Origin: a virus
Reading direction: 5' to 3' (one strand)
Length of the DNA stretch: 27,571 bases
IMG/VR virus record: IMGVR_UViG_3300033155_000566
Location: 1 to 27,571 of that record
The position numbers and the translations under genes were made by a program. The notes below the pieces were generated by a model that did no database searches, was not told the origin of the DNA, and worked only from the letters and a program-made list of their open reading frames with translations. Positions within the stretch are counted from its first letter, which is position 1, and each line of letters starts with the position of its first letter. Positions 828 through 27,571 of the stretch are shown one piece after another.

Positions 828-2879
828 ATGTCACAAAAGCAATGGAAATTCAGATTATGGGATGGTGCTAGTAATCGTGGTAGCACAATAAGTGCTGATA
901 CGTATGATGAAGCTTGCTGGCAGGCAGGCGTAGACACTTTCCCTCCGAGTTACATATGGTCTATAGAACCTAAGATGAATGCAATATCTGAATTTCGTAA
1001 ATTACAAGAAAAGCTAGAGAGAATTGATGAAAGTTATTTTTCTCGACTCGCAGCAGCAGCAGATGATATGGCACTATATAATCAGCGTATGCCAGTAGAC
1101 GAATTAGTTAAATTGATCCGTACTGAACTTGGCGATCAAGCGGCACAATACATAAGCGATAAACTTGCAAAGGGTGGTCGTATCGAAGAAGATATAGATG
1201 AAGCTGCTCCGTCTGTACAAAAAGGCGATAGAATAAAAATCCAGCGAGAACATCACATCGGCAATAAAATCGAAGAATTTGCTGGCACAGTAATAGATGT
1301 TAGCCAAGATGTACACGGCTATAAAGTCGGTGTTGTATACAGGGATGGCAACAAAAATATTCGTGCTTGGTATCATGTCAATGGCGTACTTTCTGGTCGT
1401 TGGTATGATGAACGTATTATGATTGAATCTGAAATTGAAGAAGATACATTCTATCACGAAGAAGATACTATCTCTGCACAAGTTAAGAGTTTACTCGCAC
1501 AAGGTAAAGAAGTACGCTCAGCCATCAGTGGTGCTATAGGCAAAGTTACAAGAACAGACGGAAGACTTCTATACATACAGAATTTAGGCCGCCAAGAAGA
1601 TGTTACAAGTTTTGATAATAATCCTGAATATAAAATTCATCCTAAAGGATTCTACTACGTAATTGAATCTGATTACGAAAATGAATTAGATGAAGGAATA
1701 GATGAAGGCAAGTGGGATTATCCCGACCATATAAAAGGCAAAGGATCCAGCCCAGACTATTTACGCACTGATATACTGAACAAAGAAGCACGTAAAAAAT
1801 TCCGTAAAGCAGAAAAAGCTAAAGCACACCAAGCACGTATGCGTGGTGAAGTTGACGAAGACGTAATGGACGAGCGGGGCAAAATGTGTCCTGTCTGTAT
1901 TGGTCAGCGGCGCGAAGGATACGGTAACGATTGTCCAAATTGTAACGGCGAAGGTTATGTTGATGAAGCAGTAGGAGTAGGAGAGGAACTTCCGCCCATT
2001 CATGCTATTGCGCGTGATGTTATAAAAAATTGGAAAAAACCTTATTTTGGCGCGGTGCCATATTTAGATGCTATGCAATCTCTTAGCACGAAACATGATG
2101 CATATGGAGCTGATAGTGGCAGCAGCATTCTTGCGTATGGATTAAGTAATATGAGTCACTATAGTGGCAGATCAGTACATGATCCTGAACTAGCAAAGAA
2201 GCATAGGGCACAATTGAAACGTCATTTAAATGAAGCGATAGTTGAAGTTCCTGCAGGATTGCGCGGCGAAGATCAAGAAAATTTAGAACAAGGTGGTTAT
2301 ACAAGTCGCGATGCGGAACGCTTCCTAGCTGATCTTGGCCCTAACGATAGTGTTGACACAGAAGTTATTGATCCAGATTCTGGCGAAGTATTAGATTGGC
2401 CTACTAAAGATACACGACGCGACCAAGACGATGCAGAATACGCAAAACAAGAAACCGAAAGACAGAGCCAAGAAGATGAGGATGAAGATTCTATCCTTTC
2501 TACTCCATATATCCCAGGCGGTCAACGCAAAACAGACGCCGGCGGAGTTGAAAGTTTTGACTATGTAGATCGCGCACAAGAGGATCTCGGTAAGCTAAGA
2601 TGGGATCAGCAAATTACTGACTTTTATGATATGACTTGGAGAAACATTGAAGACTTAGTTGATGAGCCTCAGCAATACTATGATGGTGATTACGATATTG
2701 GCTGGGACATGCCAGTTGCTATTAAAAGAACGGACGGACAGAAATTCACAGACGAAGATCATAACAATTTCCGTCGCCTAACTTCATTATTCAGGGCAGC
2801 AACACACAATATTAGCGCAAGCTATGTTGGGACATCTGATAACGGCACAGTTGCACGTTTCGTTCCTAGCTTCCACTAA
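828..2879 (+). CDS. Large acidic protein of unknown function with one zinc-knuckle pair
   Basis: A 683-aa protein I do not recognise as a named family. The N-terminus (MSQKQWKFRLWDGAS) looks like a compact folded domain. Residues roughly 340-385 hold CPVC and CPNCNGEG, a DnaJ-like CxxC pair that probably binds zinc. The rest is acidic and low in hydrophobics, with charged linkers such as QSQEDEDEDS. A late promoter motif precedes it, so it is probably made late and could be virion-associated. Two other large proteins in the window (ending at 13939 and 18016) share the design of acidic linkers plus CxxCxGxG knuckles. Its stop overlaps the start of the FeoA-like gene (TAATG), so the two form an operon. 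It is one of few plus-strand genes here. Confidence 0.85.
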   Translation: MSQKQWKFRLWDGASNRGSTISADTYDEACWQAGVDTFPPSYIWSIEPKMNAISEFRKLQEKLERIDESYFSRLAAAADDMALYNQRMPVDELVKLIRTELGDQAAQYISDKLAKGGRIEEDIDEAAPSVQKGDRIKIQREHHIGNKIEEFAGTVIDVSQDVHGYKVGVVYRDGNKNIRAWYHVNGVLSGRWYDERIMIESEIEEDTFYHEEDTISAQVKSLLAQGKEVRSAISGAIGKVTRTDGRLLYIQNLGRQEDVTSFDNNPEYKIHPKGFYYVIESDYENELDEGIDEGKWDYPDHIKGKGSSPDYLRTDILNKEARKKFRKAEKAKAHQARMRGEVDEDVMDERGKMCPVCIGQRREGYGNDCPNCNGEGYVDEAVGVGEELPPIHAIARDVIKNWKKPYFGAVPYLDAMQSLSTKHDAYGADSGSSILAYGLSNMSHYSGRSVHDPELAKKHRAQLKRHLNEAIVEVPAGLRGEDQENLEQGGYTSRDAERFLADLGPNDSVDTEVIDPDSGEVLDWPTKDTRRDQDDAEYAKQETERQSQEDEDEDSILSTPYIPGGQRKTDAGGVESFDYVDRAQEDLGKLRWDQQITDFYDMTWRNIEDLVDEPQQYYDGDYDIGWDMPVAIKRTDGQKFTDEDHNNFRRLTSLFRAATHNISASYVGTSDNGTVARFVPSFH

Positions 2880-3097
2880 TGTGCATCACTGAATTAGGCT
2901 TCAAACAAAAAGGCATTATCACAAGCATAGATGCATCTGATCCATATGTTCAGCGTCTTATGACTATGGGATTTGTCGAAGGCGCAGAGATTGAACACCT
3001 TACTACTGCTGGCAATGCATACGAATTCAGAATTATGAATACACTATTCGCATTCTCAAAAGAGCAGGCTCAACATTTTACTGTTGAACCTGCGTAA
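2879..3097 (+). CDS. FeoA-domain-like small protein
   Basis: A 72-aa protein with the layout of a FeoA/SH3-like domain: an opening strand with KGIITSIDA, a central VQRLMTMGFVEGAEIE matching the FeoA pattern RRLxxMGhxxGxxhe, and a final strand FAFSKEQAQHFTVE. In bacteria FeoA is a cytosolic partner of the ferrous iron transporter FeoB, and the same fold is used in metal-dependent regulators. No FeoB is visible here. The ATG overlaps the preceding stop (TAATG), so expression is probably coupled to the large acidic protein. It ends one base from the 3' end of a convergent tRNA-like gene. A role in iron handling in the infected cell is inference only. Confidence 0.75.
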   Translation: MCITELGFKQKGIITSIDASDPYVQRLMTMGFVEGAEIEHLTTAGNAYEFRIMNTLFAFSKEQAQHFTVEPA

Positions 3098-3098
3098 T

Positions 3099-3281
3099 TG
3101 GTGGGAGCGGGTGGATTCGAACCAATTTAGGATTGTAACACATCAACTACTCGATCAACCGCGTTTAACATGTGACCTAACTAAACTTTACCGACCTTCT
3201 ACATCACTAGAACCAATTATCAAGTGTGTGGACGCTCTACGAGCATCTACGTAGTTACTCTACCGACTGAGCTACGCTCCC
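3099..3281 (-). tRNA. Interrupted tRNA-like gene 1 (183 nt, encoded CCA)
   Basis: The ends are those of a tRNA: GGGAGCG pairs perfectly with CGCTCCC, followed by A and an encoded CCA; a D-arm GCTC-AGTCGGTA-GAGT follows the first stem; TTCGAAT is a normal T-loop. The interior is about 107 nt too long. The best fit has two inserts. One of about 41 nt lies in the anticodon loop, between ACTAC (3251-3255) and GTAGA (3198-3202). A second of 66 nt (3124-3189) lies inside the T-stem. Removing the second restores a canonical variable loop AGGTC and a perfect T-stem GGTGG/CCACC. Removing both gives 76 nt, the normal tRNA length. The anticodon cannot be assigned because the first insert boundaries are unclear. 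A degenerate tRNA or a tRNA-like ncRNA is the alternative. Confidence 0.7.
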
Positions 3282-3293
3282 GTTATTTAAAAA

Positions 3294-3472
3294 TGGTGGA
3301 GGCACGGTGCGATTCGAACGCGCTACAAGGATTGATTCAGATTCTTGGCCGTAATCCTACTACCTAACTTGCAGTTTACCGTCTTCTGTCTGCTCATTGC
3401 AGTGATGCTATATATAACTGGCCGCGCTATATAACTTTGCCCCAGACGCTTTACCCTTAAGCTATTGCCTCC
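3294..3472 (-). tRNA. Interrupted tRNA-like gene 2 (179 nt, encoded CCA)
   Basis: Built like its neighbour 12 bp away: acceptor GGAGGCA/TGCCTCC is perfect, then A and CCA; the D-arm is GCTT-AAGGGTA-AAGC; the T-loop is TTCGAAT. About 100 extra nt are inside. TCTG of the anticodon stem can pair with CAGA only across a loop of about 52 nt. A second insert of 56 nt (3322-3377) separates CGGT from GCG; removing it makes a perfect stem CGGTGCG/CGCACCG around the T-loop. The inserts of the two genes share AGAAG, CGGTAAA and AGTTAGGT in the same order, then AATCCT near the 3' end, so they are related. They look too short for ordinary group I introns. Anticodon not assignable. Confidence 0.7.
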
Positions 3473-3482
3473 ATTGTTCGTG

Positions 3483-4055
3483 TTACACTCTCCCTAGTAC
3501 TCTGACTGTCTTAGCAATGTTTTTGCCTACAGTAGGCTTCGTGAACTTTCGTTGTTCCTCAGCTACAATTGATGGGAGTGCTTGGCCTGATAGGTGTTCA
3601 TATACTTCACTTGCGAGTTCATACAGCATTGCATTAGTGATTGTATCACCGAATGGTAATCGTAATTTATCTACAGCCTCTCTTGCGTATCTTCGACTAA
3701 ACTCTGATTCAGAATTTATGTCTTTGACTCGTCGTGCTGATTGAATGAGATTGGATACGGTTAAGTCATAGTTATACCACGGGCTTCCGCAATGCGCACC
3801 CAATCGACCTTCGTTGACGATTGGTGTGAACCCTCGATGACTTTCGTAACCTCGCAAGAGGTTGTAAATCATGTAATGGGTAGAGTCAAGCATGTTGACT
3901 TTGTATTCGTGTGTGCCGAGACGGTCTTTGTATTCCCGTGTTTCGACCACATGGCCGTCGTTATGGAAATCTTTCCATGCTTGTTTAAAGTTTAAATAGT
4001 CTTCTTTTGAGTTGAAGAATCGCGTCTTTGCGTCTTCGATTTGAAATGCTTTCAT
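3483..4055 (-). CDS. Conserved-looking phage protein, unknown function (190 aa)
   Basis: A 190-aa soluble protein starting MKAFQIEDAKTRFFNSKED. It has mixed charge, many aromatic residues (HYMIYNLLRGYESHRGF) and no membrane segment or motif I recognise. The start is supported by AGGAG seven bases upstream. It has its own strong sigma-70 promoter and a 150-nt structured leader, which mark it as an early, individually regulated gene. Two tRNA-like genes follow 11 bp after its stop. An early host-takeover role would fit the promoter, but that is inference. Confidence 0.8.
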   Translation of the reverse strand: MKAFQIEDAKTRFFNSKEDYLNFKQAWKDFHNDGHVVETREYKDRLGTHEYKVNMLDSTHYMIYNLLRGYESHRGFTPIVNEGRLGAHCGSPWYNYDLTVSNLIQSARRVKDINSESEFSRRYAREAVDKLRLPFGDTITNAMLYELASEVYEHLSGQALPSIVAEEQRKFTKPTVGKNIAKTVRVLGRV

Positions 4056-4182: not shown

Positions 4183-4211
4183 ATTATATATATTTAGCAG
4201 TTGAAAGTCAA
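4183..4211 (-). promoter_or_regulatory. Sigma-70 promoter (TTGACT-17-TATAAT)
   Basis: The -35 TTGACT (4206-4211) and -10 TATAAT (4183-4188) are separated by exactly 17 bp. This is a near-perfect host-type promoter and probably drives early expression of the 190-aa gene and perhaps the tRNA-like genes behind it. Confidence 0.8.
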
Positions 4212-4230: not shown

Positions 4231-4521
4231 TTATACTGGTATTATATGAATCGGAATAAAGTAAAATTGTGTATTTCCTTTCGGTTGAATAGCCAGATCA
4301 ACCCACAATTCGTTATTGTTTATACGTTCTTTTGTGTTGTTACTCTCATCAACGATGATTGCAAAATCTTCTAATTCATCTATTTCTTTTAGTGTAACAG
4401 ATAGTGCAGAGCGAATAGAATTGCGTGTTACGCTATCGTTAACTTCAAAGAAGTATTGCTCAATTACGTTGTTTGCACGACTACGTATTGATTCGAGAAG
4501 TGTTTCATCTAATGTATTCAT
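4231..4521 (-). CDS. Stand-alone tail-sheath C-terminal domain paralog (96 aa)
   Basis: This 96-aa protein aligns along nearly its full length with the last 100 residues of the tail sheath protein encoded at 24761-27571. Shared landmarks are IR near the start, F-x-x-NDxVTR, an identical VDESNNT followed by RI and NELW, then the closing IQP/VQP strand and YIPI/FIPI. In contractile tails the sheath C-terminal domain forms the conserved inner layer and exchanges strands with neighbouring subunits. A free copy could cap, regulate or plug sheath assembly, or be a relic of duplication; function is inference. ATG 4521 has an AGAGGAT ribosome-binding site and is the last gene of a late micro-operon beginning at 4773. 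Confidence 0.85.
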   Translation of the reverse strand: MNTLDETLLESIRSRANNVIEQYFFEVNDSVTRNSIRSALSVTLKEIDELEDFAIIVDESNNTKERINNNELWVDLAIQPKGNTQFYFIPIHIIPV

Positions 4522-4526
4522 AGTGG

Positions 4527-4559
4527 TTATCCTCTAATAAGATCAAATTGTTTAGTCAT
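4527..4559 (-). CDS. Ten-residue ORF coupling two genes
   Basis: ATG at 4559 overlaps the TGA of the 43-aa ORF (CAATGA) and encodes MTKQFDLIRG before TAA. Its last codons contain the AGAGGA ribosome-binding site of the sheath-domain gene five bases on. It may act only as a translational bridge. No coding signal beyond position supports it. Confidence 0.3.
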   Translation of the reverse strand: MTKQFDLIRG

Positions 4560-4687
4560 TGTACGTGACCTCCGTTTTGCATCATTGGCAAATGCACGTT
4601 GTAGTAATAATCAGCGCATTTACCTAAACCACCCAATACGATTAGTGCAATGATTATCTGAATTGTTCGTTTCGTTTTTAGTTTCAT
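4556..4687 (-). CDS. Small membrane peptide (43 aa)
   Basis: Begins MKLKTKRTIQIIIALIVLGG: a basic N-terminus followed by a hydrophobic span of about 14 residues, then a polar tail with DYYYN and MMQNGGHVQ. This looks like a single-pass membrane peptide or an uncleaved signal anchor; a cysteine follows the span but the preceding residues do not make a good lipobox. The ATG overlaps the stop of the upstream 29-aa ORF (ATATGA). No family recognised. Position in a late operon would fit a lysis or envelope role, but this is inference. Confidence 0.55.
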   Translation of the reverse strand: MKLKTKRTIQIIIALIVLGGLGKCADYYYNVHLPMMQNGGHVQ

Positions 4688-4773
4688 ATGAAGAATGACC
4701 AGTTACGAAGCAGAAAATATCCAACAACGCCAATCGCCAGTAAGAAAAACATGAGTTTAAATTTCTTTTCCAT
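4684..4773 (-). CDS. Small hydrophobic membrane peptide (29 aa), leaderless
   Basis: Starts MEKKFKLMFFLLAIGVVGYF and ends with RNWSFFI: a charged start and one transmembrane helix. The ATG lies exactly 5 nt after a GATAAATA late promoter. By analogy with T4 the transcript would begin on the A of the ATG, so translation would be leaderless; no ribosome-binding site is present. It heads a four-ORF chain joined by ATGA-type overlaps that ends with the sheath-domain paralog. Confidence 0.6.
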   Translation of the reverse strand: MEKKFKLMFFLLAIGVVGYFLLRNWSFFI

Positions 4774-4778
4774 ACTTT

Positions 4779-4786
4779 TATTTATC
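4779..4786 (-). promoter_or_regulatory. T4-like late promoter motif GATAAATA (leaderless arrangement)
   Basis: GATAAATA on the minus strand with 5 nt to the ATG at 4773. It lies just downstream of a tRNA gene, so the micro-operon has its own late start. Confidence 0.65.
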
Positions 4787-4789
4787 ATT

Positions 4790-4862
4790 TGGCGCCAGTG
4801 GAGGGATTCGAATCCTCAAGTTAGAGTTTTAGAAGCTCCTATCTGCCCAGCAGCGCACCAGC
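4790..4862 (-). tRNA. tRNA with apparent CUA (amber) anticodon
   Basis: Acceptor GCTGGTG/CACTGGC pairs over seven positions with two G-U wobbles; discriminator G and encoded CCA follow. The T-arm has loop TTCGAAT with GAGGA/CCCTC. The anticodon arm is best read GGAGC-TTCTAAA-ACTCT, putting U at 33, CTA at 34-36 and A at 37, a UAG decoder. A C-A mismatch closes the loop. The D-arm is very short (CTGC-TGG-GCAG), so the molecule is unusual. An Arg TCT reading would need an asymmetric nine-base loop and fits worse. The preceding frameshifted gene runs into its 5' part. Confidence 0.7.
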
Positions 4863-5138
4863 GAATTATCAGAATGTACATTTTTCAAAATATATCGGAT
4901 GGTATCTGCAAGAGATTTCCTTCGGGAGTCCCCCACCATATCGAAATCGTACTGCAAATAATCCAAAATACAAAGTAAAGCAGCGATCAGTAGTTGATCT
5001 ACCAAATACTGGTCGTGAACTTCCTTCGGTTGCGCACCAATTCCACCAAACTTCTCGCCATTGCATCTCAGGTGGCGCAGGCGGCTTACCATTTTTCAGT
5101 GAATCTTTAAATTTTTGTTTTCGTTTTCTACTAAACAT
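4829..5138 (-). pseudogene. Small phage gene apparently split by a frameshift
   Basis: Two overlapping frames each look real over only part of their length. The first starts at 5138 (MFSRKRKQKFKDSLKNGKPP) and reads well to QWREVWWNWCA. The second, offset by one base, then gives PKEVHDQYLVDQLLIAALL and continues to SRRKSLADTIRYILKNVH, while the first frame becomes low-quality. Dropping one base near 5030-5040 would join them into one protein of about 100 aa. Causes may be a real mutation, programmed frameshifting or a sequencing error. The second frame ends inside the neighbouring tRNA. No family recognised. Confidence 0.5.
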
Positions 5139-5146
5139 AAACCAGC

Positions 5147-5314
5147 TTATTTCGGTTCTATGTCGTATCTAACTTCATCTACAACCACATATGGCCCGTA
5201 GGTCATTTGATCGACGTAAAGCTGCGCTTCACTAATCTTTGCTTGTAGGTCTGCTTTAGCATCTTCGGACAAATTTTCAATTTCTTCCGTTGTTGCTGTT
5301 CTAGTGTATGTCAT
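5147..5314 (-). CDS. Small protein of unknown function (55 aa)
   Basis: I chose the ATG at 5314 (MTYTRTATTEEIENLSEDAK) over one at 5383 because AAGGAAAAT lies just upstream and the longer form would overlap the preceding gene in another frame. The protein is acidic, helical in its first half, and ends with a strand-like YGPYVVVDEVRYDIEPK. No recognised family. It lies in a run of small genes read toward the tRNA island. Confidence 0.6.
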   Translation of the reverse strand: MTYTRTATTEEIENLSEDAKADLQAKISEAQLYVDQMTYGPYVVVDEVRYDIEPK

Positions 5315-5315
5315 G

Positions 5316-5510
5316 TTATTTTCCTTGTAGCTTTCGCTTGAATTTCGCTCTCTGTAATCTGCGAAATACTTTCCAAACTTCATCCCAGTGTTCTTTCTGT
5401 TCGTCTGGATCGTGTGTTCCAGTCAAGTCATACGCAGCTTTTCTGTTGGCCTTGCAGACCCAACAGAGTCCGACTTCGTTTCTATTTTCGCTGTGTTTAC
5501 ACGTTTCCAT
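5316..5510 (-). CDS. Small putative zinc-binding protein (64 aa)
   Basis: METCKHSENRNEVGLCWVCK shows CxxH followed eleven residues on by CxxC, a likely four-ligand zinc site. The C-terminal half is basic and helical (VWKVFRRLQRAKFKRK), so nucleic-acid binding is possible. It begins six bases after the 3' end of the second amber-type tRNA and abuts the next gene (TAACATG). No named family recognised. Confidence 0.6.
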   Translation of the reverse strand: METCKHSENRNEVGLCWVCKANRKAAYDLTGTHDPDEQKEHWDEVWKVFRRLQRAKFKRKLQGK

Positions 5511-5515
5511 AAAAT

Positions 5516-5591
5516 TGGAGGCTCGTCAGGGAATCGAACCCTGGACTGATACGTTTTAGAGGCGTCTGTTCTACCATTGAACTAACGAGCC
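5516..5591 (-). tRNA. tRNA with CUA (amber) anticodon
   Basis: A cleanly folding 76-nt tRNA: acceptor GGCTCGT/ACGAGCC, D-arm GTTC-AATGGTA-GAAC, T-arm CAGGG-TTCGATT-CCCTG, discriminator T and encoded CCA. The seven-base anticodon loop CTCTAAA places C32, U33, anticodon CTA and A37-A38, as in an amber suppressor. The anticodon stem is weak: three central pairs with mismatches at both ends, including the same C31-A39 seen in the other CTA tRNA. The amino acid it carries cannot be told from sequence alone. The upstream gene ends in TAG within its 5' part. Confidence 0.8.
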
Positions 5592-6037
5592 GATTTAATT
5601 CTTTCTATAAGTTCATCTATTGTATTTACTTGTTTAAGTTTGTAACGTTCACATACAATATCAACATTGCCCTTACGCCAAAATCCTTCAGGGCAACATA
5701 CTATTAATTTATTTTTTCGAGCAAATAATCCTAATTCTAAAAGTGAAATTGGAGATTTTGTAGCGGGGTCAAAGTAAAGAGCAATAATATCTGCTTTTTC
5801 TAGGTGCAGTAGTTCCCATGTTACTTGTTGGTTGAATTGTACGTTTTCAATTGTTTGTTGCCAGCTACTGTCCCAATCATCGCGTCTAGGATTATAAAAA
5901 GTTATATCTTCGTTTTCTAATTCACGGACAATTCGTTCTTGCCACGGTTCCGCTTTGCCCATTTCAATGCTGCCTGCAAGAAATACTGACAGTGCTGTTT
6001 TTTCTGGACTTTGATTTGGTGCTTTTATTTCAATCAT
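5582..6037 (-). CDS. Nucleoside 2-deoxyribosyltransferase-like protein
   Basis: 151 aa. VFLAGSIEMG near residue 18 is the nucleotide-binding loop, followed by FYNPRRDDWD, QFNQQVTWELLHLEKAD and the SPISLLELGL motif with the expected catalytic Glu. This order is that of the nucleoside 2-deoxyribosyltransferase-like family (Nuc_deoxyrib_tr_2), which exchange or hydrolyse bases on deoxynucleosides and often occur in phages for nucleotide salvage. It starts one base after the TAA of the previous gene. Its stop is TAG, the only TAG stop I found among the normal-size genes, and it lies inside the amber-type tRNA gene, so gene and tRNA overlap by 10 nt. Confidence 0.8.
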   Translation of the reverse strand: MIEIKAPNQSPEKTALSVFLAGSIEMGKAEPWQERIVRELENEDITFYNPRRDDWDSSWQQTIENVQFNQQVTWELLHLEKADIIALYFDPATKSPISLLELGLFARKNKLIVCCPEGFWRKGNVDIVCERYKLKQVNTIDELIERIKSAR

Positions 6038-6352: not shown

Positions 6353-6599
6353 TTGCTAGCTCCATTAAAATGTCACCATGGCACAATTCGGGCGCACACC
6401 AACATCCTAAAATTTTTCCATTCAATTCAACCTTTATTTTAGCAAGTAATTCGGGCTGTGTCAAGACCCATTCGGCATATTTTTCCACTACTTCTTCGCG
6501 AGTTCCGTCTCTTCCGATGGTAAATGGGTTGCCAAACGGGCCAGGACGACCGATATATACATCATATGGGTTTTTTTTGATGTGAACAACCTTTACCAC
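6345..6599 (-). CDS. DUF4326-like protein
   Basis: The sequence has the hallmarks of DUF4326: an opening VVHIKKNPYDVYIGRP, then GPFGNPF, and a closing LGCWCAPELCHGDIL with Cys-His pattern. The family's function is unknown; it is common in phages and may be a small nucleotide- or metal-binding fold. I place the start at the GTG at 6599, overlapping the stop of the GIY-YIG gene (GTGGTAA), since family members begin right at this strand; a TTG at 6623 would add eight residues. About 84 aa. Confidence 0.75.
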   Translation of the reverse strand: MVKVVHIKKNPYDVYIGRPGPFGNPFTIGRDGTREEVVEKYAEWVLTQPELLAKIKVELNGKILGCWCAPELCHGDILMELANE

Positions 6600-7267
6600 T
6601 TTAATTTTCGTCCTTTGATCCAACCATTATCTAGGAATTCCTGTATTTCATTCTTCGGAATTGTTTTAGAAATTTTCTGGTCTTCGTGATATATCCAACA
6701 TGTTCCGAAATTAGGATTCTTGTTGCCCTGCATTTCTTCACTTCTTTTGTGTCTTATTTCGATTGCTCGGCCATTATAAATTTCTTCATATGTTCGACCT
6801 TTACAATGTGATCGTTTTCCTTTCATTGCCCTAGATACGTTTTGGCGGGTTTTGTCTGTGTGTCTGTATCCCGTAAGCGCCTTTGATATTTTCTTTCTTG
6901 TTTCTTTAGAAACTTCACGGCCAAGTCCGATTCCCTTTAGGGCCCTTGACCTACGTTGCCGTTCTTCTAAACTCTGTTTTCTTCCTTTCGGAGAGCCACC
7001 AAAGCCGCCAAGTTTTAAATTGTATGTATCGAGGCGCGATATAAATTCTTCTGTAACGATTTGTCGTTCCGTATCGAACATCTCTGCCTGCGAATCAAAT
7101 ACATGTAGCACTACCTTGGTAAAGTTTTCCTTGCCGTATTTCTCTATGGCTTGCAGTAGAATTTTTCCTGATCCCATATAATCATCATCAACGGTTTCAG
7201 TTTGATGGCATCCTATGTAAAATCGGTCATTTATGTTGTTTGTAGTCTTGTAAACTGTATATCTCAT
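6593..7267 (-). CDS. GIY-YIG homing endonuclease with NUMOD segments
   Basis: 224 aa. The nuclease fold is visible as YTVYKTTN and RFYIGCHQTE near the N-terminus, then a conserved IVTEEFI with the metal-binding-type Glu. NUMOD3-like helices follow (TRKKISKALTGYRH, TRQNVSRAMKGK), then a C-terminal segment GTCWIYHEDQKISK typical of endonucleases that also bear a NUMOD1-like unit. The ATG is six nt after a GATAAATA motif with no ribosome-binding site, so a nearly leaderless late transcript is likely. It is inserted among small accessory genes. Confidence 0.9.
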   Translation of the reverse strand: MRYTVYKTTNNINDRFYIGCHQTETVDDDYMGSGKILLQAIEKYGKENFTKVVLHVFDSQAEMFDTERQIVTEEFISRLDTYNLKLGGFGGSPKGRKQSLEERQRRSRALKGIGLGREVSKETRKKISKALTGYRHTDKTRQNVSRAMKGKRSHCKGRTYEEIYNGRAIEIRHKRSEEMQGNKNPNFGTCWIYHEDQKISKTIPKNEIQEFLDNGWIKGRKLKW

Positions 7268-8366: not shown

Positions 8367-8771
8367 ATGATAATTTATAAAGCAACTAGTACAGTTTCCA
8401 GAAAGTCGTACATCGGTTTAACTGCTGATCTGCATAAACGAAAAACAGAACACCTAAGTTTAGCGAATCAAAAATGCCAATATCATTTTCACAAAGCAAT
8501 ACGCAAATACGGATTCCATGCGTTTACCTGGGATATTTTAGAAGAATGTGTAGATCGTGATACTGCAGGCGACTGCGAAATCGAATTGATTGCAAAATAT
8601 GATACTTTTCATAACGGATATAACGGCACCCGAGGTGGAGACGGCGGATTCAACGGATTTCATACAGAAGAAACTAAACAGAAGATTAGAGAAGCAAGCC
8701 TAGGAAATATTCCAGGAAATAAAGGTAAGAAGCGACACTATAATCCTGACGGATCCTATTCTTACAGGTAA
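8367..8771 (+). CDS. Short GIY-YIG homing endonuclease
   Basis: 134 aa. MIIYKATSTVSRKSYIGLTA gives the GIY and YIG strands, followed by KRKTEH with the conserved Arg, and an acidic CEIELIAKY containing the metal-binding-type Glu. One NUMOD3-like unit (TEETKQKIREASLGN) follows, then a short tail HYNPDGSYSY, so it is shorter than the other two endonucleases and may be near-minimal. It lies alone on the plus strand between two minus-strand operons, a placement typical of a recent mobile insertion. Confidence 0.88.
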   Translation: MIIYKATSTVSRKSYIGLTADLHKRKTEHLSLANQKCQYHFHKAIRKYGFHAFTWDILEECVDRDTAGDCEIELIAKYDTFHNGYNGTRGGDGGFNGFHTEETKQKIREASLGNIPGNKGKKRHYNPDGSYSYR

Positions 8772-24760: not shown

Positions 24761-27571
24761 TTATAGATTCAAGTCTGCACCCGTATTCTGAATACGAATT
24801 GGGATGTAGATAAATTCAATAGATTTCACTGGTTGTACAGCAATATCAATCCAAAGCTCGTTTCGATCAATACGTGCTGGTGTGTTATTGCTTTCATCAA
24901 CAACTACCAAGAAGTCTTGTAGACCACGTAGAGTTACTAGTTCTGCTAAGAGTGCGTCAAACGATTCTTTAACAGCATCGCGTGTTACTCGATCATTTGG
25001 CTCAAACAAGAACGGTTGTCCTAGCTGATCCGCTTGATAACGAATGTGATTTATTAGACGCGCAACATTAACACGATCTAGTGCCGATGCTGTAGCTTGT
25101 CGTGTCTTCTGACCATATACAACTAAACCTCTGTTAGGAATACTTGCAATTGGGTTGACATTATTAAGCTGTAGCGTGTCACGTTGGCCTTGATTCAGTG
25201 AGCTAGCTATAAATTCGTCTGAACTATTTAGATAGCCAACCGATGTTGCGTTGCTTACTGTACCGCGTGTGTAACCTGCGGGAGCGAACCAAGGATAAGA
25301 GACTTGATCGTTGAATGCCATTGTGCGTAAGATCATATGACTAGCTGGTACAACTACTTCGCTACCATCTACGTTAGTAGAAAGTCCGCTTGGGTAGTAA
25401 ACACCTAGATTTGAGTCTGCGCTTACAAGACCAACATCACCGTTGCCTGCAGCATTGGCGCTATTAGAACTCCATGCTTGAAGATCAGTTGTGCTGTCAC
25501 TCAAGTTGAATGGTGAATCACCTAGAACAAATGCTTGTTCTTTGCGATCAATATTTAGTGTTAGCATTTCATCAATTAGTTCTGGGAAACCAGGAACAGC
25601 AATCAAGTTATAGAAAATTGTATCATCACGTACTTCTTCGTTGCTGATAATCACTGATGAAATTGCATTTGCAATAACTTTACGTTGTGCATCTGAACCT
25701 GCAATCAAACTGCCGTCTAGTGCGTTGCCGCTTGAGCTAACCCAACGATCAACTGCAATTGTGCCTGCTGCATCATCGAATGTTGCGTTTAGCGTCCATT
25801 GCTTAACGTTACGTCCACTGTAGCGTGTGTTGAACAATATTGTTCCCACAGGATACAATAGTGAATCTGGACTATCAAAATCTAAGTCAGGATCTGTGCC
25901 GTTGCCGCCGTTATTAATACCTGTGCCGCTGCCTGCTGCTACTGATGCCGGCCTTGCGTCTGCAAAAAGAATGCCTAGTGCTGATGTTTGGTCAGTGTTG
26001 TCAATCAATACCCACGCATCAACAGTCAAGTCAGTCCAGCGATAGATAACTGGGTAGCTACCTGATGCATCTGTATCTAACCATAGATCACCAAAGCTAG
26101 GTGTTCCAGGTGCTGCTGTAGCAATAGTTAGTGTACCTGTATAATTATCCCAAATATTACGACTTAGTGCATTCAGTTTGTTTTCTAGAATGTCAACTGT
26201 GAAACTTGGGTCATACCAATACGTACCATCTGCTACTGTGCCTACAGGTTGTGTTGTGTCTGCTTCATATAGCGTAATCGCTGAGAAGTTAGATGATGTA
26301 TACGTTCCTGCTGGATAATGCGTACCTACATCAATAAATAATTCGCCTGCGATTGATGTTGTGAATGCTGAAAGAATAATATCACGGCCGTCTGCCGCTC
26401 TTAAGATTAACAAATCTGTTGATGATTTACTTGCTACAATACCTTCGCCTGTTAGTGCTGCATCAGCATTTAAGAAAATAACCAATGCATCAATATCTGC
26501 GATACCTGCTAGATCACTTGTTGTCGTTCCGTTAAGATCAAATGATGTTATTGTATCATCTGTAATCGGGAATGTTGGTGCTGCTGAACTAGTAACAGAT
26601 AAGCTTGTAGCGCCACTATGAATTTTCAACTCAACTGTTGCCTCAGATAGTACCTGAGGTGTGTGCGGTAATTCATCTGCACCAGCATATGAGTTAATTC
26701 GATCAATGAAACCGACAACTGTATTTGCTGCTACTGTGTTTGACGCATTACCTGTCTGTGCATAATATGAAGTAGGAGTATTAGCTATGCCAATCTCTCC
26801 GTTACTTACAAACTGTGCTAGTGATGAATCATAATGACTTACATCAAGACTTAGGCCGTTATTTGGTGTAGATGATTTGAGCCAGTATGAACTAGTATCA
26901 AGACCTGTCGCATTATCACTTGCTAGTGTAGGAATAAAGTTGTGAGGTGACCATTGAAAATCATTAGTACCGACACCACGCCACGATGAGCCGCCTACCA
27001 AGCGCCATACACCTGAAACTCGTTCCATGTACTGGAATCCGCCTAGCGGATCAACCTGTTCACCTGCGGGTGCTGATAGTGCTGTAGCAAAGTTAGCAAT
27101 AAATATACCATTAGCATAACCACTTGAAGGTTCTGCTGCACCATCAGCAATTAATAACGTTGTTTCTACTGTAGAAGTGTTTACTGCATTCCAAATACCT
27201 GCACTAGCCCATTTGAACAAACCTGGAACAAAGTTATTTGTATTATTCCAGTATGTAGCGTCTGCTGGCGCTGACGTTGGTGCTATGCTTGTAGGATCTA
27301 GTTCTGCTAGATCAAGGTCTGCTCTAATTACGTATGCTCGGTTAGCTGCACCTAGATAAGAGTATGCTGCTAGTAGGCCGAACTCGTTAAGAGGATAACC
27401 ATGCTGTGCTGTTCCGCCGATCTCGTTAAAATCTGGATCGCCGAATGTTTGTAGAAGCTCACGCTGGCTGCTAACTAGGAACAATTGTTCTGCTGTTGCA
27501 GTTGTTGATCCAGGCGCAGTTGCAGTACCATCTGGGGTAAGCTTATCTTGTTTTGTTGCGATGAAAATTAG
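24761..27571 (-). CDS. 18: Tail sheath protein (gp18-like), 5' end outside window
   Basis: The frame is open to the right edge: at least 936 residues, already much longer than T4 gp18 (659). A TTG at 27484 is not the start, since the upstream codons stay open and continue the protein. The early part (LLQTFGDPDFNEIGGTAQ, LNEFGLLAAYSYLGAANRAY) and the C-terminal third (YPWFAPAGYTRG, NPIASIPNRGLVVYGQKTR, FLVVVDESNNT, NELWIDIAVQP) are classic sheath motifs. The extra length is in the middle, a Thr/Ser/Ala-rich set of beta domains likely exposed on the sheath surface. The sheath contracts to drive the tube through the cell envelope. Confidence 0.95.
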   Translation of the reverse strand, partial: LIFIATKQDKLTPDGTATAPGSTTATAEQLFLVSSQRELLQTFGDPDFNEIGGTAQHGYPLNEFGLLAAYSYLGAANRAYVIRADLDLAELDPTSIAPTSAPADATYWNNTNNFVPGLFKWASAGIWNAVNTSTVETTLLIADGAAEPSSGYANGIFIANFATALSAPAGEQVDPLGGFQYMERVSGVWRLVGGSSWRGVGTNDFQWSPHNFIPTLASDNATGLDTSSYWLKSSTPNNGLSLDVSHYDSSLAQFVSNGEIGIANTPTSYYAQTGNASNTVAANTVVGFIDRINSYAGADELPHTPQVLSEATVELKIHSGATSLSVTSSAAPTFPITDDTITSFDLNGTTTSDLAGIADIDALVIFLNADAALTGEGIVASKSSTDLLILRAADGRDIILSAFTTSIAGELFIDVGTHYPAGTYTSSNFSAITLYEADTTQPVGTVADGTYWYDPSFTVDILENKLNALSRNIWDNYTGTLTIATAAPGTPSFGDLWLDTDASGSYPVIYRWTDLTVDAWVLIDNTDQTSALGILFADARPASVAAGSGTGINNGGNGTDPDLDFDSPDSLLYPVGTILFNTRYSGRNVKQWTLNATFDDAAGTIAVDRWVSSSGNALDGSLIAGSDAQRKVIANAISSVIISNEEVRDDTIFYNLIAVPGFPELIDEMLTLNIDRKEQAFVLGDSPFNLSDSTTDLQAWSSNSANAAGNGDVGLVSADSNLGVYYPSGLSTNVDGSEVVVPASHMILRTMAFNDQVSYPWFAPAGYTRGTVSNATSVGYLNSSDEFIASSLNQGQRDTLQLNNVNPIASIPNRGLVVYGQKTRQATASALDRVNVARLINHIRYQADQLGQPFLFEPNDRVTRDAVKESFDALLAELVTLRGLQDFLVVVDESNNTPARIDRNELWIDIAVQPVKSIEFIYIPIRIQNTGADLNL

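Follow-up and report, generated by a model that had tools for sequence, protein, structure and literature searches.

Two adjacent genes on the minus strand of an uncultured virus genome encode tRNA-like RNAs of 183 and 179 nt, over double the usual tRNA size, in which a hairpin is inserted into the T-stem and the loop of the anticodon arm is replaced. Comparison with related genes supports a common architecture composed of a tRNA chassis, a covarying anticodon stem with its loop replaced, and a hairpin grafted into the T-stem after the motif GGT. The extra hairpin in the T-arm and the replaced codon-reading loop point to tRNA mimics rather than to decoding tRNAs. With moderate confidence, both genes may therefore be assigned to a family of non-decoding, tRNA-derived structured RNAs that would be kept whole and perhaps act as tRNA mimics; support for the structure is higher than for the function. 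A preliminary description of the same DNA had offered a small tRNA intron, a split-tRNA relic and a novel tRNA-like noncoding RNA as possibilities, the last of which fits best.

The DNA analysed, henceforth the window, comprises 27,571 bases of an uncultured virus record. Its encoded proteins are T4-like and include UvsX, the large terminase and the tail sheath, and among phage records the terminase comes closest (57%) to those of PA5oct, Paride and similar Pseudomonas jumbo phages; the source is an uncultured giant-type bacterial virus of a T4-like, jumbo-phage-related lineage. On the minus strand, gene 2 (3294-3472) is followed head to tail by gene 1 (3099-3281) after a gap of 12 bases, and both were missed by ARAGORN and by Rfam at the gathering score. 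Convergent to this array is a FeoA-domain gene (2879-3097, plus strand; Pfam PF04023), which adjoins the array in each contig found. The phage-encoded, stand-alone FeoA domain shares 64-79% identity with the equivalents in five further contigs and is fully identical in 3300033143_001408; the array is present in all six contigs returned with a FeoA-like neighbour, a small sample that includes one contig nearly identical to the window. A terminator-like hairpin (3064-3093, minus strand) lies 5 nt beyond gene 1 and shares bases with the terminal part of the FeoA-like gene, which runs towards it. With one such hairpin found against 1.2 expected in shuffles it carries little weight alone; similar sequence follows the arrays of the related contigs L004, L007 and L021, and its first arm follows those of L012 and L013, where the sequence covered extends only that far. 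Upstream of both genes and of the ORF 3483-4055, a promoter-like site TTGACT-17-TATAAT is located at 4183-4211 on the minus strand (11/12 matches); here, too, the two sites found against 3.3 expected in shuffles are weak if taken alone.

Gene 1, assigned to type C, carries an encoded CCA end and is recognised by its pairing and by the covariance model R1 (129 bits, gene 1 itself being among the eight training sequences of R1). The 5′ acceptor strand GGGAGCG (3275-3281) pairs with 3103-3109 in all seven positions, and the anticodon stem CTAC/GTAG (3199-3254) encloses, where an anticodon loop would be expected, a loop of 48 nt (3203-3250). The T-stem insert of 66 nt (3124-3189) consists of AAAG, a hairpin stem P1 (TTTAG/CTAAA), an internal loop formed by TTAGG and CAATC, and an inner helix P2 (CACAT/ATGTG). 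The T-loop, the upper T-stem GG/CC and the 3′ strand ACC are found at 3110-3123, and GGT at 3190-3192 completes the stem. Gene 2, of type A, likewise ends in an encoded CCA and reaches 83 bits with R1, type A being outside the training set. Its 5′ acceptor strand GGAGGCA (3466-3472) pairs with 3298-3304 and is separated from the D-arm by three nucleotides (ATA). The remodelled anticodon arm (3385-3446) is closed by the stem TCTG/CAGA, which pairs in all four type-A genes and whose 3′ strand is the second CAGA, that is, the covarying register. Within this arm lie the hairpins H1 (3409-3433, loop GCGCGGCCAGTTA) and H2 (3390-3402, CTGC AATGA GCAG). The T-stem insert of 56 nt (3322-3377) is built from AAA, P1 (CTGCAAG/CTTGTAG), the TTAGG and CAATC internal loop, and P2 (GGATT/AATCT) with the loop ACGGCCAAG.

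Much of the preliminary description is borne out by this analysis. The two adjacent genes of about 180 nt are real, both possess perfect 7-bp acceptor stems, D-arms, TTCGAAT T-loops and encoded CCA, the break follows CGGT in either gene with the insert beginning AAA, and AGTTAGGT and AATCCT are common to both. Removal of 3124-3189 from gene 1 restores GGT|GG with CCACC as proposed; removal of 3322-3377 from gene 2 likewise yields CGGT|GCG with CGCACCG, but the resulting stem has seven pairs instead of the canonical five. The view that the double inserts are related holds, by inspection, for the T-stem inserts, which share their plan, and not for the anticodon-region loops (48 and 54 nt), which are unlike each other. 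Similarly, a single compact fold accounts for the acceptor, D-arm, anticodon stem, T-stem and P1 of both genes, while the H1/H2 arm of gene 2 is absent from gene 1.

Five further contigs from uncultured phages contain ten more genes of this family, one to three per contig, and both window genes recur letter for letter in 3300033143_001408. The contigs were obtained by pattern and protein scans of IMG/VR (3300033148_001467, 3300010430_000621, 3300033388_001351, 3300027881_000104 and 3300031669_000179); one more family gene, in 3300031539_000734, is truncated by the contig end. There is no insert-free allele in the six contigs with a FeoA-like neighbour. The sample comprises 12 distinct complete genes, sorted by sequence into type A (gene 2 and three others), type B (four), type C (gene 1 and two others) and type D (one). 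Contigs carry one copy (D), two copies, or three (A-B-C in 3300027881_000104), and in 3300033388_001351, where only 54 bases separate the start of the array from the end of the contig, another copy may have been cut away. The A, B and C paralogues each recur in several phages with both the T-stem insert and the replaced anticodon loop.

The model R1 was built from the eight B, C and D genes, with type A left out, and recovers all four type-A genes with 65-87 bits, compared with 38.5 bits for the highest-scoring ordinary tRNA of that search. Since R1 finds the untrained type A, and since ten more genes follow one plan, the window genes are not a product of chance. The best ordinary tRNAs reach 44 bits in six isolate phages and 36 bits in two Lak phages. 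R1 matches in the isolate phages (17-44 bits) are of ordinary tRNA size save four; three of these correspond to interrupted tRNAs (two in GAP32, one in Atu_ph07), and the fourth, in Phosso, to a pair of neighbouring tRNAs taken for a single gene. Four pattern matches (L006, L008, L014 and L015) were discarded, having no tRNA frame on reading and no R1 match. A wider pattern scan returned 23 viral stretches and at least 117 stretches from 84,980 bacterial and archaeal species genomes. The acceptor score, used for the loci from L028 on, did not discriminate, one real gene scoring 8 and five other loci also 8; because it does not separate them alone, all 19 viral and 117 cellular loci were searched with R1. 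Family genes were recovered only in L036 and L038, which are copies of known contigs, and none was found by R1 in the at least 117 bacterial and archaeal stretches that one pattern had drawn from the 84,980 species genomes. The remaining matches score 20-38 bits and are tRNA-sized, except for one of 134 nt and 27 bits in L108 (802-935; Candidatus Micrarchaeota JACCLJ010000100.1), which is longer than a tRNA and possibly represents an archaeal tRNA with an intron. A blastn comparison of four arrays or array parts with 50,697 phage records gave, among the matches listed, none covering more than 26% of the query, and all of those listed fall on tRNA parts or chance stretches. Between window and L004, the type-A genes are 95.5% identical and the FeoA genes 77%; between window and L007 or L013, the values are 75-77% and 76-78%, respectively, and the type-C genes of window and L012 share 60%. 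Sequence identity alone is thus a weak guide, and in general the RNAs show no better conservation than the adjoining FeoA gene.

The conserved features were assessed by cutting the 12 genes into helices by eye and counting pairs; the H2 segment of B_L007, which was one base out, was omitted. All 12 genes have seven of seven acceptor pairs, a pairing anticodon stem of many different sequences, and a TTCRA T-loop; the D-arm is found in 11, being weak in A_L007, and CCA also in 11, B_L012 ending in CCT. Among the type-A genes the anticodon stems read TCTG/CAGA, CCTG/CAGG, CTCG/CGAG and CTCG/CGAG. The T-stem insert follows GGT throughout, and an uninterrupted 5-bp T-stem occurs in none of the genes. 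Below the insert the T-stem is GGT/ACC (GGT/GCC in A_L013), and above it GG/CC in types B, C and D and GCG/CGC or GGG/CCC in type A. T-stem inserts measure 53-66 nt and anticodon-arm loops 27-62 nt. Every T-stem insert starts with a linker of 3-4 nt (AAA or AAAG in nine of 12) leading into P1, after which TTAGG and the inner helix P2 follow in eight of 12. Discriminator bases are A in types A, C and D and G or C in type B; these differences, together with those of the acceptor sequences, argue against one conserved aminoacylation identity.

In a MAFFT alignment of the eight B, C and D genes, 98.1% of the cells of 27 pairs are paired and 13 pairs change on both sides, among them five of the seven acceptor pairs and four of five in the anticodon stem. 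The covariation score was reached by none of 500 shuffles, and structures slid by one to three columns were paired at 36-49% only; further pair types were not above the shuffles (143/500) in these eight genes. Across the nine A, B and D genes, P1 is paired in 98.1% of cells with five of six pairs changing on both sides, P2 in 84.4% with two of five, and the whole structure in 89.5%, the value of 77.8% for the T-stem pairs reflecting misaligned columns. The GGT/ACC pairs are nearly invariant and therefore provide no test of the T-stem. As all 12 genes belong to one lineage, the counts of changes are not independent and kinship inflates the covariation. Folding energies are ordinary: a single gene among the 12 lies below all of its 100 dinucleotide shuffles, and the values for B_L004 and C_L012 exceed the mean; single-sequence folding was not significant and was dropped as evidence. 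The compensatory changes in the acceptor, the anticodon stem and the hairpin of the T-stem insert imply that this insert is old and structured.

In types A, B and D, the anticodon stem continues into a short closing helix (GC/GC, or GT/GC in A_L007), beyond which it encloses the hairpins H1 and H2. The H1 loop carries GGCC or GGTC and the loop of the T-stem insert GGCC or GACC, the two being complementary over at least four bases (GGYC/GRCC) in all nine genes of these types. This match suggests that the T-insert loop may kiss H1; in gene 2, the possible contact (within 3344-3427, minus strand) would join GGCC of the H1 loop (3415-3427) to GGCC of the P2 loop (3344-3352). There is one double change, GGTC/GACC in A_L013; an outer U-A pair is missing in four of the nine genes, and the single-gene chance of such a match, as determined by loop shuffling, ranges from 0.006 to 0.29. 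In B_L012 and B_L013, the H2 loop matches the T-insert loop over six bases and might be the partner instead of H1. The type-C genes, gene 1 among them, differ in the loop of this arm (27, 27 and 48 nt), and no kissing contact is visible in them by inspection.

The closest published relatives found are the tRNA introns of the Lak megaphages, in which the anticodon is intact. According to the portions of the literature consulted, all phage introns seen until 2014 sat in protein genes (PMC3984707), and the Lak authors (Devoto et al. 2019), to whose knowledge phage tRNA introns had been unreported until then, termed the conserved inserts of the Lak tRNAs enigmatic and described a possible tRNA within some of them (PMC6784885). 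Lak phages and the present family have in common that large phages carry tRNA genes enlarged by conserved inserts. In the Lak Gly, Tyr and Thr genes, the inserts lie after the anticodon and contain T-arm-like parts, and upon their removal all three leave a cognate anticodon loop, whereas the present family has an insert in the T-stem and, in nine of 12 genes, no recoverable anticodon loop. Among the open-access literature matches listed, judged by titles and abstract openings, a T-stem insert in a phage tRNA is undescribed.

A second group of interrupted genes occurs in GAP32-like jumbo phages (Mimasvirus and Eneladusvirus), where tRNA-Lys(UUU) genes have a hairpin-bearing insert of about 50 nt (46-51) between positions 28 and 29 of the anticodon stem. 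The nine genes, from seven phages, are annotated as tRNA-Lys, tRNA-Phe, tRNA-Ser, pseudo-tRNA or protein; those of GAP32 itself are located at 300083-300209 and 306871-306996 of JN882285.1 (L169, 584-710 and 7372-7497). As in the present family, a structured insert of about 50 nt is found in the 5′ strand of a tRNA stem that is restored on removal. These inserts differ in lying in the anticodon stem and in keeping a perfect stem with a CTTTTAA loop in seven of nine genes; a T-stem insert is seen in none of the nine. They may be regarded as candidate short tRNA introns in cultivable phages, and the parts seen of two papers on such phages (PMC5259590, PMC7760394) mention no tRNA intron. An unannotated tRNA-Tyr(GTA)-like gene of Atu_ph07 (MF403008.1, 323902-324023; L170, 903-1024, minus strand) has an anticodon-loop insert which can fold as an acceptor and T-arm minihelix, like the nested tRNA of the Lak introns. 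In archaea, a tRNA may contain multiple introns at unusual sites (compare PMC4090602, seen in part), and the bulge-helix-bulge intron is characterised by a 4-bp helix that is flanked at the splice sites by two bulges of 3 nt each. The window genes resemble the archaeal ones in having more than one insert at unusual sites; they reside in a bacteriophage-type genome and show no bulge-helix-bulge by inspection. Group I introns of bacterial tRNAs likewise interrupt tRNA genes (PMC3984707, seen in part).

These systems bear on the question of whether the T-stem insert would be a genuine intron of small size, spliced out exactly at the GGT|GG junction by some ribozyme or by a nuclease and a ligase, with the anticodon insert as a second intron or a degenerate loop. 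We consider this reading rather unlikely as a whole; an intron would be possible for the T-stem insert alone. The position of the insert is the same in all 12 genes, its removal gives GGT|GG:CCACC in all eight B, C and D genes, short tRNA introns are described for Lak phages (PMC6784885, seen in part), the anticodon-stem inserts of GAP32-like phages fall into the same size class, and the Rfam tRNA model spans C_L013 (44.5 bits) and D_L021 (32.1 bits; cut-off 29) end to end with large insertions. Against it stands that type A keeps a T-stem of 6-7 bp after removal and that the anticodon region does not behave as an intron would. Any single excision in that region leading to a 5-bp stem and a 7-nt loop with U33 and a purine at position 37 was accepted as a solution, and nine of the 12 genes have none; B_L004, gene 1 and C_L013 do have solutions, with mutually different loops. 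Nine genes without a solution and three inconsistent ones indicate that the anticodon insert is not an intron leaving a decoding tRNA. The same procedure returned CTTTTAA for seven of the nine interrupted GAP32-like genes (the exceptions, Vibrio D479 and the second CBB gene, having no solution) and included the cognate loop, among others, for all three Lak tRNAs. The removable second insert of the preliminary description is thus contradicted for gene 2, which offers no solution with U33 and 7 nt, and for gene 1 it gives only forms seen in no other family gene; the lengths of 76 and 78 nt are arithmetically correct, yet fail as evidence of splicing. What survives of the intron proposal is the intron-like removal of the T-stem insert in types B, C and D.

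By inspection, the linkers that flank the insert hairpins, 3-4 nt long at the 5′ side and 0-2 nt at the 3′ side, are unlike the archaeal arrangement, no bulge-helix-bulge being seen by eye in the cut gene segments, and an insert-free relative is lacking among the six FeoA-neighbour contigs. A T4-type RNA ligase is encoded by all four insert-bearing GAP32-like phages searched (GAP32, BF, XbC2 and Vibrio D479), which would suit an intron. It has no match in the six family contigs, which are fragments, nor in PA5oct, and its occurrence in Phosso, Atu_ph07 and Vibrio 2.275.O means that it is not specific to insert carriers. Group I introns are far larger than the 53-66-nt T-stem inserts or the 27-62-nt anticodon-arm loops, as had been pointed out from the outset, and cmscan of window 3000-3600 (E up to 5) matched no intron family and no credible Rfam class; a group I remnant was dropped. 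The split-tRNA relic was abandoned as well, both halves being contiguous.

The most tRNA-like parts of the genes are their ends and the insert hairpins are conserved, which would also suit a precursor whose ends serve as handles for RNase P and 3′ processing and whose inserts are released as small RNAs or cut by phage or host. This is improbable, as the covarying anticodon stem encloses its hairpins and the acceptor closes the whole, arguing for an intact body. Decay into tRNA pseudogenes with accumulated insertions would be compatible with the missing decoding loop, the weak D-arm of A_L007 and a between-phage identity mostly no higher than that of the FeoA gene; compensatory changes in the acceptor, the anticodon stem and P1 render it very improbable. 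Still less is to be expected from an RNA of a known class. An RNA with acceptor and T-arm in which a long substitute takes the place of the anticodon region is reminiscent of tmRNA, and a weak YrlA match (19.1 bits) across the junction of both genes recalls Y RNA, but the Rfam scores are 9 and 15 bits for tmRNA against thresholds of 84 and 47, and 19 against 69 for YrlA. We know of no tmRNA with a T-stem graft. With no match at the gathering score, no ARAGORN tmRNA in the window and weak fragments only in L013, the tmRNA assignment was dropped.

Several other features of the window were recorded. Three GIY-YIG-like ORFs of the free-standing homing endonuclease kind are located at 112-795, 6593-7267 and 8367-8771; a match to PHROG homing endonucleases backs the first, the other two are assigned solely by eye, and none falls within the tRNA-like genes. 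A 96-amino acid ORF (4231-4521, minus strand) has its sole match in the C-terminal stretch (positions 821-909 of 915) of PHROG 10581, a phage tail sheath family, and would be a stray sheath tail; the ORF 24761-27484 (907 amino acids), whose end resembles it by eye, is probably the full sheath. Two further tRNA-like genes on the minus strand (5516-5591 and 4793-4862) display CTA in an enlarged anticodon loop (CCTCTAAAA and CTTCTAAAA) and are candidate amber suppressors. ARAGORN calls only the former, as tRNA-Pyl, and the latter is below the Rfam cut-off (19.1 bits); of the six related contigs that have complete family genes, five contain one or two CTA tRNAs according to ARAGORN in the parts scanned. 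TAG recoding was dropped as the setting, the stop codons of 26 window ORFs being TAA in 23, TGA in two and TAG in one case; the inspection for in-frame TAG covered the region around 4520-5600.

Returning to tRNA mimics kept whole, the genes would be co-transcribed with the upstream ORF 3483-4055 from the promoter-like site at 4211-4183. The RNAs would be released by RNase P and tRNA 3′ processing and, with no splicing step, would remain whole at 150-185 nt. Placed in the 5′ strand after GGT, the graft leaves the T-stem able to stack through, and in types A, B and D the kiss between its loop and H1 (GGYC/GRCC) might lock the two arms together. As to function, for which the indications are weak, the mimic could occupy a protein that reads the tRNA elbow and acceptor end, such as a tRNA-attacking defence nuclease or another tRNA-binding enzyme, to which it would offer no anticodon to cut or decode. 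The complete scheme of a new phage RNA class acting as a clamp, in which T-stem graft and rebuilt anticodon arm kiss and tandem paralogous, stable, anticodon-less mimics bind and block a host protein acting on tRNA, is a tentative proposal and, taken in full, unlikely.

Summarizing, the initial observation holds for the most part and reaches beyond the window. Few biological shapes are as constrained as the arms of tRNA, and outside the archaea one would not expect a conserved RNA with a CCA end to carry a hairpin within its T-stem. If the RNAs are kept whole, they would represent a new family of viral tRNA mimics; if they are spliced, the insert would be a new kind of very short intron. The interruption of phage tRNA genes is also more widespread, as is evident from the tRNA-Lys genes of GAP32-like phages, the Lak phages and Atu_ph07, and since interrupted genes are present in isolates that can be grown in the laboratory, how and why phages interrupt their tRNA genes becomes testable.
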